In this document: one piece after another, positions 15,111 through 58,971 of the stretch
How positions within the stretch are numbered: the stretch's first letter is position 1
Layout: each line of letters opens with the position of its first letter
Assembly (NCBI RefSeq): GCF_021462415.1
Contig: NZ_JAKEDS010000001.1
Coordinates: 1,770,273 to 1,834,272, forward strand
Source of the DNA: Rhodohalobacter sp. 614A
Lineage (GTDB): Bacteria > Bacteroidota > Rhodothermia > Balneolales > Balneolaceae
Length of the DNA stretch: 64,000 nucleotides
Direction of reading: 5' to 3'
Notes under the pieces: generated by a model
What the model was told of the DNA's origin: nothing
Databases searched by the model: none
What the model saw: the letters and a program-made list of their open reading frames with translations, nothing else
Made by a program: the position numbers and the translations under genes

Positions 15111-16004
15111 TTGCAACACTCTGCCAAACATATTGCCGATCGAATCCGGTTGATGATTTCCACCAAACAGTTCCAGGTTGGAGAAATGCTGCCTTCCACA
15201 CGTGAATTGGGAAAACAGTTGGGAGCAAGTTTTCACACGGTTCGGAAGGCTTACCAGCAGTTGGCTGATGAAGGATTGATTGAAAGCGAGCAGGGGCGAG
15301 GGTTTATTGTTACCCATCAAAGCACCCAGCTTGATAAATCGGAGCGATTAGAGTTGGGGGCGGAAAAAATCCAGATTTTGCTGGAAGAGCTCATTGGGTA
15401 CGGTTTGGATGAATCTGAAGTGGAGGCAATTTTCGAGGAGCAGATGAGCTTTATGGAGTGGCCGGACCGAATTCAGAGCATTGCCACAGTTGGGGAAACG
15501 ATTGAACTGGCCAAGTTGCTTTCGGATTCGATCAAAAATCAGATTGGAGTGAAAAGTTCCGTTATTAAATCAGCAGATTATGATGACCTGATCAGGTACG
15601 ACGCCCTTTTTGTGCCGATCTATTTGGTCAATGAATTCCGAAATTTAAGTGAATCGATCCGTGTGTTGCCGGTTGTTTTTCATTACGACGCGGATGTTCT
15701 TCTTTCTATCATCGATCGATCCGGAATTGAGGCAATTGGTTTGGTTACAGCCGAGGAAGAAACCATTCCAAAAATCATTGATGAGCTTAAAACATTAATC
15801 AAGTTTGAAGGGGCATTTGTAGCCGGCGCAACGTATGGAAAATCGTTGCCGCTTTTTGTCCGAAATACGGATTTGATCGTCTACACGCCTGCCAGCGCCC
15901 GTTTGGTAGAGGCAAAAATCCCCGAGAAAAATCGCATTAAACTGGAATATATCATTTCAGAAAAAAGTGCCGAGACGATTCGGGCTGAGTTGTGGGATCA
16001 GTAG
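15111..16004 (+). CDS. GntR family transcriptional regulator (YtrA/YhcF-like N-terminus)
   Basis: A 297-aa regulator. The N-terminal winged helix covers residues 1-70, with AKHIADRIRLMI, LPSTRELGKQLGASFHTVRKAYQQL and a wing GLIESEQGRGFIVT. The C-terminal 220 residues form a domain I do not recognise, with a periplasmic-binding-protein-like feel. A stop at 15105-15107 closes the frame upstream and the first helix needs the earliest residues, so TTG at 15111 is the only sensible start. The gene is bracketed by repeats: the heptamer array touches its start and an inverted-repeat element begins in its stop codon. Targets are unknown; the preceding isomerase-dehydrogenase pair is a possibility. 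Confidence 0.8.
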   Translation: MQHSAKHIADRIRLMISTKQFQVGEMLPSTRELGKQLGASFHTVRKAYQQLADEGLIESEQGRGFIVTHQSTQLDKSERLELGAEKIQILLEELIGYGLDESEVEAIFEEQMSFMEWPDRIQSIATVGETIELAKLLSDSIKNQIGVKSSVIKSADYDDLIRYDALFVPIYLVNEFRNLSESIRVLPVVFHYDADVLLSIIDRSGIEAIGLVTAEEETIPKIIDELKTLIKFEGAFVAGATYGKSLPLFVRNTDLIVYTPASARLVEAKIPEKNRIKLEYIISEKSAETIRAELWDQ

Positions 16005-16506
16005 TGAAAAGTGAGAAGTCAAAAAGTGAAAAGTGGGCTTTTACTTCATACATTTTCAACTCTTATTTTGTGAGTGATGATAACATGGCGAATGTTTCAT
16101 TGGTTAGTTTATTTAAAGAACTGACCTGATCTTTTGATAAGTAATTAAGAACTAAAGCGATTTCAATTTGAGTATCTATTTCAACTAAAGATGATCTTGA
16201 AATTTCAAAGAACCTCTTTCTTTCAAGTTTAGATTTTCTCGCCGCTCCTTCAGATATATTTGATGAGATGGAGACAGCCGCTCTTCTAAGCTGGCTGACC
16301 AGGCCAAATTTCTCATGGTCTGGTAGTAATTTTGTGACTTCATAAAGTTCTGTGACAAGCTCAATACTTCTTTTCCAGACATTTAATTTTTTGTGATTGA
16401 GATTTAACATTTTTTGAAAATTTATTTGGGTTCATCTGTAAGAACCAAGAACTTTAAAACCCTTACAAAACCAAACTTTTCACTTTTTGACTTCTCACTT
16501 TTCACT
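16003..16506. mobile_element. Inverted-repeat-bounded element carrying a four-helix-bundle gene
   Basis: The arms at 16003-16034 and 16475-16506 are perfect 32-bp inverted copies. Each arm is itself iterated, reading as AGTGAAA / AGTGAGA / AGTCAAAA / AGTGAAA / AGT. The left arm starts inside the GntR stop codon (16002-16004); the right arm ends 6 bp before the helicase ATG. The only gene inside is the four-helix-bundle ORF. No transposase is present and no target duplication is evident. It is called a mobile element by architecture; movement is inferred. Confidence 0.7.
16063..16410 (-). CDS. Four-helix-bundle protein (23S rRNA intervening-sequence protein family)
   Basis: A 115-aa protein matching the small four-helix-bundle family (TIGR02436/S23-like). 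Hallmarks are KLNVWKRSIELVTELYEVT, the central LVSQLRRAAVSISSNISEGAARKS, and FFEISRSSLVEIDTQIEIAL. Relatives are encoded within 23S rRNA intervening sequences, as free-standing genes in many Bacteroidota, and as Avd accessory proteins of diversity-generating retroelements. They are small, basic and form oligomeric barrels that may bind nucleic acid. Here no rRNA or reverse transcriptase is nearby; the gene is the sole cargo of a perfect inverted-repeat element. Its actual job is unknown. Confidence 0.9.
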   Translation of the reverse strand: MLNLNHKKLNVWKRSIELVTELYEVTKLLPDHEKFGLVSQLRRAAVSISSNISEGAARKSKLERKRFFEISRSSLVEIDTQIEIALVLNYLSKDQVSSLNKLTNETFAMLSSLTK

Positions 16507-56252: not shown

Positions 56253-56843
56253 ATGTCGAAACCCACAGAACTGTTTCTCGCTTCCGGGAATCCACACAAA
56301 ATTGAGGAACTTCAGCAGATTCTGAAGCCGCTTGGTATCCATTTAAAATCAACATTGGATTTTCCGGATGCTCCCGAGGTAGAAGAAGATCAACCCGATT
56401 TGCAAGGAAATGCATTAAAAAAGGCTCGGTTTTGGTTTGAGAAAACCGGCTTGCCATCCATCGCCGATGATACTGGTTTGGAAGTAGAAGCTTTGGGCGG
56501 TGCTCCCGGAGTCTATTCAGCAAGATATGCCGGAGAGAATGTAACCTACCAGCAAAATGTAGATAAGTTGTTGCGGGAGTTGGGAAACGAAGAAAATAGA
56601 AAGGCACAATTCCGAACAGTCATTGCCTATCTGACAGATGACGATGAATACGTTTTTGAAGGTGTATGCAAGGGACAGATCCTTACCGAACAACGAGGGG
56701 AGAAAGGATTTGGTTACGATCCTGTATTTCAGCCAACAGGTTATGACAAAACCTTTGCCGAGCTGGATTCTGAAGAAAAAAACAAAATTAGCCACCGGGG
56801 AAAAGCCCTGGAAAAATTTCTGCAATTTTTAAAAACAGATTAA
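56253..56843 (+). CDS. rdgB: XTP/dITP diphosphatase (RdgB/HAM1)
   Basis: A 196-aa house-cleaning enzyme that hydrolyses XTP, ITP and dITP to monophosphates (EC 3.6.1.66). Features are LFLASGNPHKIEEL, LDFPDAPEVEED, FEKTGLPSIADDTGLEVEALGGAPGVYSARYAG (in parts), KGFGYDPVFQP and KNKISHRGKALEKF. The stop codon TAA (56841-56843) is also the start of the left arm of the GxxExxY element, so the element sits flush against the gene. Confidence 0.96.
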   Translation: MSKPTELFLASGNPHKIEELQQILKPLGIHLKSTLDFPDAPEVEEDQPDLQGNALKKARFWFEKTGLPSIADDTGLEVEALGGAPGVYSARYAGENVTYQQNVDKLLRELGNEENRKAQFRTVIAYLTDDDEYVFEGVCKGQILTEQRGEKGFGYDPVFQPTGYDKTFAELDSEEKNKISHRGKALEKFLQFLKTD

Positions 56844-57352
56844 CCGCAGAGACTCAGAGAAGCATTATTTTAATCGTTCATATAAATTATTGGCTACTCT
56901 TTTTATTCCATATTTAATTTTTGGGGTTTGAAAGTTTAATAAGTAGCCGAGACGACAATGTGTTAATTTTAGATAGGTAAGTAACTGGGCAGTATGGATA
57001 TCAAGTAGATTTTCTACTGTTTTGATTTCTATGACAATTTTTTCATTTACCCATATATCTATTCTATAACCACAATCTAGTTTGACATCTTTGTACCTTA
57101 GAGGTAAATGAACCTCCGATCGAACATCCAAATTTTCATTTTTCAATTCATAGATTAAGCATTTTTGATAAGCAGACTCCAGAAGCCCCGGACCCAGTCT
57201 TGTGTGAACTTCATAAGCAGCATTAACTACAAGAGTTCCAATTTCATTTTCAGTCATTTCTTAAAATATTTAAATAGTAACTTAACCGTATGAACCGCCT
57301 TAAAGTAAATCCTTACAAATTTTCTCTGTGACTTTGTGACTCTGCGGTTAAA
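56840..57352. mobile_element. Inverted-repeat-bounded element carrying a GxxExxY gene
   Basis: The left arm (56840-56861) and right arm (57321-57352) share a 12-bp end, TTAACCGCAGAG. After it the right arm has an extra eight-base iteration (TCACAAAG) before the shared C(T/A)CAGAGAA. The right arm reads as iterated 'GTCAC/CAGAG' words. The left arm begins at the rdgB stop codon; the right arm ends 59 bp before the symporter start. The only gene is the GxxExxY ORF. It has the same plan as 16003-16506, with unrelated arms and cargo. Mobility is inferred from architecture. Confidence 0.65.
56865..57257 (-). CDS. GxxExxY protein (PD-(D/E)XK nuclease-like)
   Basis: A 130-aa protein of the GxxExxY family (TIGR04256). 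The name-giving motif is Gly24-Leu-Leu-Glu27-Ser-Ala-Tyr30. Candidate nuclease-fold active-site residues are Asp67 (YRIDIWV), Glu77 and Lys79 (IVIEIKT), and Gln91 (AQLLTYL), the pattern of PD-(D/E)XK enzymes. The molecular role is not established. It is the sole cargo of an inverted-repeat element between rdgB and a symporter. Its gene is on the strand opposite to both neighbours. Confidence 0.9.
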   Translation of the reverse strand: MTENEIGTLVVNAAYEVHTRLGPGLLESAYQKCLIYELKNENLDVRSEVHLPLRYKDVKLDCGYRIDIWVNEKIVIEIKTVENLLDIHTAQLLTYLKLTHCRLGYLLNFQTPKIKYGIKRVANNLYERLK

Positions 57353-57411: not shown

Positions 57412-58971
57412 ATGGTATTTGGAATGGGATTTACTCTGATTGACGGCCTTGTTATTGTTCTGTATTTGATTGTTGTGGCCGTATTTGGAATTTGGTCGGC
57501 GGGGACGCAAAAAACGACTACCGATTATTTTTTAGGAGGACGCGAAATGCCTTGGTGGGCTATTCTGTTCTCCGTTGTGGCTACCGAAACCAGCACGCTT
57601 ACATTCATCAGCATTCCGGCTGTTGCCTATGGCGGAAACCTGATGTTTCTGCAACTGACCTTTGGTTATATCATCGGGCGAATTATTGTAGCTTTTTGGC
57701 TCCTGCCGGGATATGTTCATGGTGAGTTGACTACCGCGTATCAATATCTGGAAAAGCGATTTGGTTCCGGAATGCGGAAAGCCGCCAGCTCTACGTTTAT
57801 AATCACTCGCTTGTTAGCTGATGGTGTTCGTCTCTTTGCGACAGCCATTCCTCTCGCCATTATTTTTCGTTTTGCAGGCGCTTTCAGCGATTGGGGAGAC
57901 ATGGGAATTTATCTCCTCGCCATCTCTGTGATCGCAGCCATTACATTGATTTATACATTTTTAGGCGGTATCAAGGCCGTAATCTGGATGGATGTTGTTC
58001 AGATGGTTATTTATATCGGCGGAGCTCTTTTTGCACTGGCACTTCTTTTTGGGAAACTTACTATTCCGGTTTCCGAAGCTTTTGCCGTGCTCAGTGAAGC
58101 TGGTAAATTCCAGATGTTTAATTTTGGATTTGATTTGAGCTGGAGTGAATTCCTGGCAGATCCCTATGTGTTTTGGATTGCCATCATCGGAGGGGCTATT
58201 TTCTCCATTGCATCTCACGGTACAGATCAGTTGATTGTACAACGATTGCTGGCAACCGGGTCGCTAAAATCAAGCCAGAAAGCATTGGTATGGAGCGGAA
58301 TTGTAGCCAGTCTCCAGTTCGGGCTTTTCCTCTTTATCGGTTTGATCCTGTTTGTATTCTATGGCGGACAAAGTGCTGCCGATATCGGGCTATCCACAAC
58401 GGATGAAGTCTTTGCCCGTTTTATTGTCGATCACATGCCGGTTGGTGTTGCAGGCCTGATTGTGGCGTCTCTTTTTGCGGCTGCTATGAGTAGTTTGAGT
58501 TCATCACTCAATGCATTGGCTTCATCAACTACATACGATATTATTAAACCGCTGTCCGGTTCAACCTGGGATGATGCCAGGGAACTCTGGGTCTCCAGGA
58601 TGGTGACAATTTTCTGGGGAGTTGTTTTAACAGGTTCAGCCTTTCTGTTTACATGGCTTCAACTAAGTGGTGATGACCGCCCGGCAATTGTCGAATTGGG
58701 GTTGGGAATTGCATCATACACCTACGGCGGACTTTTGGGAATCTTTGTTCTTGGCAAGATTTTTCCAAAGCCGGATAAGACCGATGCCATGATTGGATTT
58801 TTCACAGGATTGATTTCCCTTTTGTTTATGGTTGAAGGCGCACTTCAGCAATTTCTTCCGGGGGATGGACTGACCATCGCCTGGCCGCTTTACACAGCTG
58901 TTGGCGGAATTATCGTTGTAACCGTGGCTAATCTGAGCTACTTTCTGAGATCAAAATTCGGGAATTCATAA
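57412..58971 (+). CDS. Sodium:solute symporter (SSS family)
   Basis: A 519-aa membrane transporter with about 13 transmembrane helices, of the Na+-coupled SSS family. Landmarks are LIDGLVIVLYLIVVAVFGIW, DYFLGGREMPWWAILFSVVATETSTLTFISIPA (in parts), GRIIVAFWLLPGY, YLEKRFGSGMRKAASSTFI (in parts) and ASLFAAAMSSLSSSLNALAS, which holds the Na2-type Ser/Ala segment of TM8. It resembles Bacteroidota members for sugars or small acids. ATG 57412 is used; an in-frame ATG four codons later is equally possible. It is 12 bp before the GT14 gene. Confidence 0.93.
   Translation: MVFGMGFTLIDGLVIVLYLIVVAVFGIWSAGTQKTTTDYFLGGREMPWWAILFSVVATETSTLTFISIPAVAYGGNLMFLQLTFGYIIGRIIVAFWLLPGYVHGELTTAYQYLEKRFGSGMRKAASSTFIITRLLADGVRLFATAIPLAIIFRFAGAFSDWGDMGIYLLAISVIAAITLIYTFLGGIKAVIWMDVVQMVIYIGGALFALALLFGKLTIPVSEAFAVLSEAGKFQMFNFGFDLSWSEFLADPYVFWIAIIGGAIFSIASHGTDQLIVQRLLATGSLKSSQKALVWSGIVASLQFGLFLFIGLILFVFYGGQSAADIGLSTTDEVFARFIVDHMPVGVAGLIVASLFAAAMSSLSSSLNALASSTTYDIIKPLSGSTWDDARELWVSRMVTIFWGVVLTGSAFLFTWLQLSGDDRPAIVELGLGIASYTYGGLLGIFVLGKIFPKPDKTDAMIGFFTGLISLLFMVEGALQQFLPGDGLTIAWPLYTAVGGIIVVTVANLSYFLRSKFGNS

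Follow-up and report, generated by a model that had tools for sequence, protein, structure and literature searches.

A GxxExxY gene of Rhodohalobacter sp. 614A lies between inverted arms of iterated short units and behind a promoter-like site that also precedes genes of DNA uptake and recombination. The reading that we favour, and judge to be probable, is that this locus is a nuclease-palindrome element similar to REP/RAYT systems, with a Cas4/RecB-like enzyme, and that it is transcribed with the competence regulon of its host. The regulatory link suggested by the common promoter-like site is the best supported part of this account.

The locus and its predicted nuclease

Within the window (the whole stretch of 64,000 nucleotides that was analysed), a single gene on the minus strand (56865–57257) is placed between rdgB (56253–56843, plus strand) and a sodium/solute symporter gene (57412–58971, plus strand), and it is bounded by imperfect inverted repeats with common ends. 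The left arm, 3′ to the gene (56840–56859, 20 nt), reads TTAACCGCAGAG-ACTCAGAG and contains one 8-nt unit; the right arm, 5′ to the gene and approximately 37 nt long, reads TTAACCGCAGAG-TCACAAAG-TCACAGAG as the reverse complement of about 57316–57352, and thus contains one extra 8-nt unit. The original prediction had described both the common ends and the unit missing from the left arm, and the sequence confirmed them. It had also placed the start of the left arm at the rdgB stop codon: the arm does include this TAA (56841–56843), but it begins one base ahead of it. Taken alone the window arms are barely significant, as shuffling the left flank 5,000 times under a first-order Markov model equalled their score in 213 cases (p about 0.04), and a single case of this kind would not convince; they are taken as real here because the loci of relatives also have arms.

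The cargo had been proposed to be one 130-amino-acid GxxExxY open reading frame, and the protein indeed matched TIGR04256 (GxxExxY) with 145 bits (cut-off 35) and PF13366 (PDDEXK_3) with 143 bits (cut-off 22), the latter being its sole Pfam match. Residues H18, D67, E77, K79, Q91 and Y95 were invariant among 36 aligned sequences, including the D67, E77, K79 and Q91 singled out beforehand, and they form an H-D-ExK-QxxxY pattern that we take to be linked to RecB/Cas4 nucleases. An AlphaFold2 model of the protein (pLDDT 94.1, pTM 0.87) found its best match among solved structures in the Cas4-type nuclease SSO0001 (Z 10.1, rmsd 3.4 over 98 residues, 26% identity), with further matches at Z 7.6 and below, and a Cas4 also ranked first in Foldseek (E 3.3e-4). 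A search of the PDB by sequence with a GxxExxY profile (A1) gave no match at E≤10. In the same 36 aligned sequences C33 was the only invariant cysteine and the Cas4 iron-sulphur cysteine set was absent, and for this reason the protein was not classed as a Cas4. The model thus looks like a small RecB/Cas4-like PD-(D/E)XK nuclease without the Cas4 cysteine cluster. RecB/Cas4-like enzymes often act on single strands, and the window protein may share this preference.

The genome contains four GxxExxY genes, one of them broken by two stops, and inspection by eye found inverted iterated arms of differing sequence at all four. Element genes are also clustered within about 23 kb at about 45–69 kb of contig G000:C4 (L002, L003, L053 and L054), where two GxxExxY genes (one broken) accompany one four-helix gene and one DUF559 gene.

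A promoter-like site common to element and competence genes

The promoter-like site TGTAAGG-N16-TTCATAC is located on the minus strand at 57288–57317, inside the 5′ arm region between arm and gene, with its −35 half adjoining the right arm. A stricter first version of the pattern had no match in the window; the final version has two matches only, the second (16438–16467, minus strand) occupying the equivalent place in another element (16003–16506) whose gene (16063–16410) encodes a four-helix PF05635 protein. The original prediction held that the two elements have the same plan but are independent in sequence. The plan is the same and the arms are unrelated, but the elements are not independent, because both carry the same 30-nt site, which is found before competence genes as well.

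The site was matched 23 times in this genome, against two matches of the reversed pattern, and although spacers of 14–22 nt were allowed the spacer was 16 nt in 23/23. Across the genus there were 340 matches, in 28/28 genomes, against five reversed, whereas 30 other genomes of the same search gave three matches against three reversed. Eighteen of the 23 sites were assigned to genes. Seven precede host-type genes, encoding RecA, SSB, ComEC, ComM and RadC, all identified with Pfam, together with a non-specific-endonuclease-like protein and a TPR protein; eleven precede element-type genes, namely two GxxExxY, three four-helix, three RAYT/Y1, one GIY-YIG, one DUF559 and one short integrase-like gene. 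In relatives (20/24 site loci examined in G003, with three more covered by other loci, and 60/76 in sister genera), the genes behind the site included those for RecN, RecF, RecJ and an integron integrase, all above NCBIfam cut-offs, and for ComEA and ComF, with scores below them.

Several other genes were found behind the site. A full-length integron integrase was identified at L137 (G020) by TIGR02249 (426 bits) and at L225 (G003) by BLAST to a short open reading frame and by eye, and L049, in this genome, has a short Phage_int_SAM_4 open reading frame. L258, L277, L294 (177 nt) and L239 (137 nt) have large open reading frames whose products are secreted and lamin-tail-like by eye only, with an equal distance in three sister genera, and L227 and L140 have small open reading frames that are AraC-like HTH by eye only.

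Site occurrence was then expressed per gene family, allowing ≤2 mismatches throughout. Of 79 GxxExxY matches in the genus, 63 copies were used (three with a stop in the matched stretch), three full-length copies were added late and 13 that were fragmentary or partial were excluded. The site was located upstream of 34/63 GxxExxY copies (reversed control 0/63) and 17/20 four-helix PF05635 genes (reversed control 0/20), and at 0/24 rdgB genes. By GxxExxY subfamily, in a clustering that left out one locus (L160), it was present in 9/9 copies with GCCACGGA arms, in 21/36 and 3/4 of two others, and in 1/13 of the subfamily with GGATT/CTGTGATT arms. The site was thus lacking at 29/63 copies, and also at the three further full-length copies, one of which has little upstream DNA. 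Outside the genus it was found at 2/10 GxxExxY and 3/10 PF05635 loci. We had ourselves predicted dprA to be a member of the regulon, and this failed, with 0/26 dprA genes having the site directly upstream.

These genes bear on the nature of the regulon, which might respond to DNA damage rather than belong to competence. We consider this doubtful: recA, recN, ssb, recJ and recF are damage or repair response genes in many bacteria, and dprA has no site, but the site is present at comEC and comM here and at comEA and comF in relatives. For a competence regulon, carriage of one site by the element and by uptake and recombination genes suggests a family of repeat-spreading elements that would be switched on during uptake of foreign DNA.

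Among sister genera the site keeps its −35 half and varies in its −10 half, with GCTCTTAC in G030 and TGTCTTAC/T in G029 as examples. When matrices were built from core genes only, for three sister genera, 16/18 element sites were placed with their own genome (permutation mean 6.1; 0/20,000 permutations reached 16), where L242 (RecQ), L292 (RecN) and L293 (ComEA) had been classed by eye and the other additions by NCBIfam. By this 16/18 result, the −10 halves of the elements follow their own genus.

An ECF-sigma-like gene of this genome is located between radC and the TPR/membrane protein gene, both of which have the site. Its product gave only sub-cut-off NCBIfam matches (TIGR02989, 36.3 bits, cut-off 124.55; TIGR02937, 30.7 bits, cut-off 42.9); Pfam at 0.001 assigned it to no family, and no match in the PDB made sense. 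A relative of this gene (29–73% identical) was found directly before the site in 7/8 further regions, the eighth (G003 L387) having been mischosen, and BLAST recognized the TPR gene behind the site in the five of these seven regions checked. Position and parallel drift together suggest that the site is probably read by the ECF-sigma-like factor. Elsewhere, alternative sigma factors for competence are known, such as sigma-H of Lactobacillus sakei (PMC3364868). Among the open-access papers listed in searches on sigma factors and competence, made by subject and not by family name, none concerned a competence sigma factor of Balneolaceae.

Arms, their copies and the rdgB-symporter junction

The original prediction proposed a class of elements in which one small protein lies between iterated inverted arms, and suggested checking GxxExxY and four-helix genes in large number for arms in their flanks; arms proved enriched, and the class stands. 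For GxxExxY the set was drawn from the best 80 of 588 relatives (79 usable) with one subfamily as query. Arms exceeded the 99% level of mononucleotide shuffles of the flanks at 56/79 loci from several phyla, where about one was expected. By record title the set is mostly Bacteroidota and also includes Cyanobacteria, Planctomycetota and acidobacterial, chloroflexi and proteobacterial records; the nearest protein relative among the matches listed for the genome collection is a Balneolaceae MAG. Many of these arms are variants of TTAACCGCAAAG-NN-CGCAAAG, much the same heptamer recurring across phyla. One GxxExxY gene with matching arms (L310) is on a contig labelled Rhizobium sp. Q54 MAG; its relatives are mostly Bacteroidota, and it is perhaps mis-binned.

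Arms also exceeded the 99% shuffle level at 22/30 four-helix PF05635 loci (one per genome, of more than 150 among the matches listed), with 7-nt units of other sequence. As a negative control, core regulon genes with the same promoter-like site had arms at 0/22. In small samples arms were found at 5/7 GIY-YIG, 3/4 RAYT and 3/5 Y1 loci, at 0/4 loci with an integrase-like gene, and were missing from 2/3 DUF559 loci. Site-bearing GIY-YIG genes (L296, L298, L299, L269 and L301) are flanked by palindromes such as TCCTGAACTTGTTTCAGGA, a type that is common elsewhere.

Arms were also scored against mispaired flanks. At 71 GxxExxY loci of this order (73 placed, two, L160 among them, left out for too little flank), the flank compared with the reverse complement of the opposite flank gave a median score of 15, against 9.5 for mispaired flanks; several flanks in this set are full hairpins. 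However, only 13/71 of these loci and 17/79 of the genome collection exceeded the 99% level of mispaired flanks, as did 0/30 PF05635 loci in a first set and 10/16 in a second. Since the heptamer is common to arms of different loci, mispairing makes a poor control, and the arm claims therefore rest on mononucleotide shuffles and the core-gene control.

Arm type follows the protein. Among 151 loci, with the upstream flank of one locus compared to the downstream flank of another so that the promoter was excluded, arm similarity rose with protein identity for pairs <65% identical (Spearman 0.225; best of 300 permutations 0.072; species tree not taken into account). The subfamilies have arms of CGCAGAG/CACAGAG, of GCCACGGA (type C) and of GGATT/CTGTGATT/ATCCTG. 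Copies of type C arms were counted in 18 of the 28 genus genomes, where the reversed pattern had no matches: six genomes with an intact matching gene had 49, 15, 17, 22, 21 and 16 copies, three with a broken matching gene had 5, 3 and 9, and nine without one had 0–4. The difference between intact and none gave p = 0.0007 (one-sided Mann-Whitney, species tree not considered). The 49 copies of G003 are at 30 separate places, in a genome with four GxxExxY genes of which one is type C. For this subfamily the repeats thus occur in many copies, and their number goes with presence of the gene. Type A arms, the kind found in the window, had one exact pattern match in this genome and at most 10 in the genus, with none in six genus genomes that lack GxxExxY and none in 10/22 that have it.

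The rdgB-symporter junction, whose comparison in relatives had also been proposed, is not invariant. The symporter gene adjoins rdgB in 17/24 genus genomes with rdgB in view. A GxxExxY gene lies between them in 8/17, and another lies next to rdgB at a contig end in G002; of these nine genes three are broken (G002, G008 and G015). The other nine of the 17 junctions have no GxxExxY gene, and several of them retain arm hairpins. The G004 junction (L023) retains the promoter-like site and an arm remnant with the gene absent, an orphan element promoter, and in G032, from another genus, the rdgB stop overlaps the symporter start, so that the place is empty. Where the junction is occupied it is held in different species by two subfamilies that are 31–37% identical, and in G023 arms of one type are nested inside those of the other, the outer pair resembling the arms of G018, where the other gene is found. 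The 63 genus copies occupy 43 flank contexts, ten of them common to two or more species. This pattern suggests turnover and nesting at old sites. When junctions were compared by eye, no clean target-site duplication was seen and no insertion was caught inside the genus, its intergenic DNA being too diverged.

These observations were weighed against other explanations of the locus. The nuclease could be a host tool, a part of the competence machinery by which single-stranded DNA is trimmed or filtered on entry, the arms serving as recognition or self-marking sites. The site that it has in common with uptake and recombination genes, the multicopy arms and GIY-YIG site-specific single-strand nucleases of Neisseria that reportedly affect transformation would all fit such a role, but 63 genus copies in 43 flank contexts, many genomes with several copies, the occurrence at a single junction of two unrelated subfamilies and of remnants that lack a gene, and genes broken in G002, G008, G015 and in one of the four cases in this genome make it unlikely. 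We regard as very improbable that the locus is a minimal cut-and-paste transposon, in which the 130-amino-acid protein would be the transposase and the arms would be terminal inverted repeats containing iterated binding sites. The presence of an arm on either side, a repeat period close to one helical turn and an arm type that follows the protein agree with such a transposon, whereas against it no target duplication was seen, unit number differs between the arms of one element, the flank is a full hairpin at several loci and many copies of the arms are found elsewhere than at GxxExxY genes (as with those at 30 places in G003). That the arms, as inverted repeats at a gene end, are ordinary transcription terminators or RNA-level gene-end structures unrelated to the nuclease is scarcely credible, since core genes with the same promoter-like site are armless and arm type follows the nuclease subfamily, also between phyla.

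Known systems and a proposed mechanism

The nuclease-palindrome element most resembles REP/RAYT systems, which passages of one published account describe as a small nuclease-type gene flanked by its own palindromes, multicopy and with the repeat class tied to the gene (PMC3686654). The GxxExxY gene is likewise flanked by palindromic repeats whose class is matched to the protein, and RAYT-like genes here have the same promoter-like site. In contrast, GxxExxY has a predicted Cas4/RecB-like PD-(D/E)XK fold and is no Y1 HUH transposase (PDDEXK_3 being its only Pfam family), its arms are iterated 8–10-nt units and its putative promoter is of the competence type. By this analogy the element may work like a RAYT/REP system, but it is not one. 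The Ssn proteins of Neisseria are reportedly GIY-YIG site-specific single-strand nucleases associated with transformation-sequence repeats and with an effect on natural transformation; the likeness lies in a small nuclease, repeats and a link to natural transformation, whereas GxxExxY is of another fold and the GIY-YIG genes here are separate members of the same regulon. Cas4/RecB enzymes share the predicted fold and the H-D-ExK-QxxxY pattern, but GxxExxY has 130 residues and no apparent iron-sulphur cluster, and its neighbours are rdgB and the symporter gene, not cas genes. Finally, the PF05635 proteins of 23S rRNA intervening sequences (IVP) likewise have arms and the promoter-like site, both in this genome and in its genus, whereas the protein is unrelated to GxxExxY and the arm units are 7 nt long and of other sequence; the window copy lies between protein-coding genes. 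In the open-access literature searched, two papers named GxxExxY, both in passing, and one named PF13366; among the papers listed, none showed a competence link for GxxExxY, for GIY-YIG or RAYT genes and palindromes, or for four-helix proteins and intervening sequences.

For the nuclease-palindrome element the following mechanism is proposed. The inverted arms of iterated 8–10-nt units would most likely be recognised by the GxxExxY nuclease. Transcription of its gene would start at a competence-type promoter, one belonging to the regulon of DNA uptake and recombination and probably read by an ECF-type sigma factor. Because the gene uses this putative competence-regulon promoter, the nuclease would be made during transformation, when single-stranded transforming DNA is present in the cell. 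It may then cut or process the arms and arm-like hairpins, and such processing could promote the copying or gain of arms, either alone or together with the gene, at further intergenic sites through transformation, comparable to the role proposed for RAYT transposases in the spread of REP palindromes. Counted against this account are the lack of the site at dprA and at many GxxExxY copies, the small number of type A arms and the absence of a caught insertion.

A wider reading, which we put forward tentatively, is that five or more mutually unrelated families of small proteins (GxxExxY, four-helix PF05635, GIY-YIG, DUF559 and RAYT/Y1, of which four have palindromic or iterated repeats of a kind of their own) came independently under one host DNA-uptake sigma factor, forming a guild of selfish elements for which natural transformation is the 'mating season'. 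Single-stranded DNA that enters the cell or recombines would be both the substrate of such elements and the route by which their repeats spread, and the element promoters would have to track a sigma specificity that drifts from genus to genus.

If the proposed account is true, it would predict an ECF-type competence sigma factor in the Balneolaceae group, would assign both a timing and a target to several families of small proteins whose annotation names no function, and would account for the short repeats found beside these families in several phyla. Extragenic palindromes would be tied to natural competence through a common promoter, and the spread of such repeats would become a testable question.
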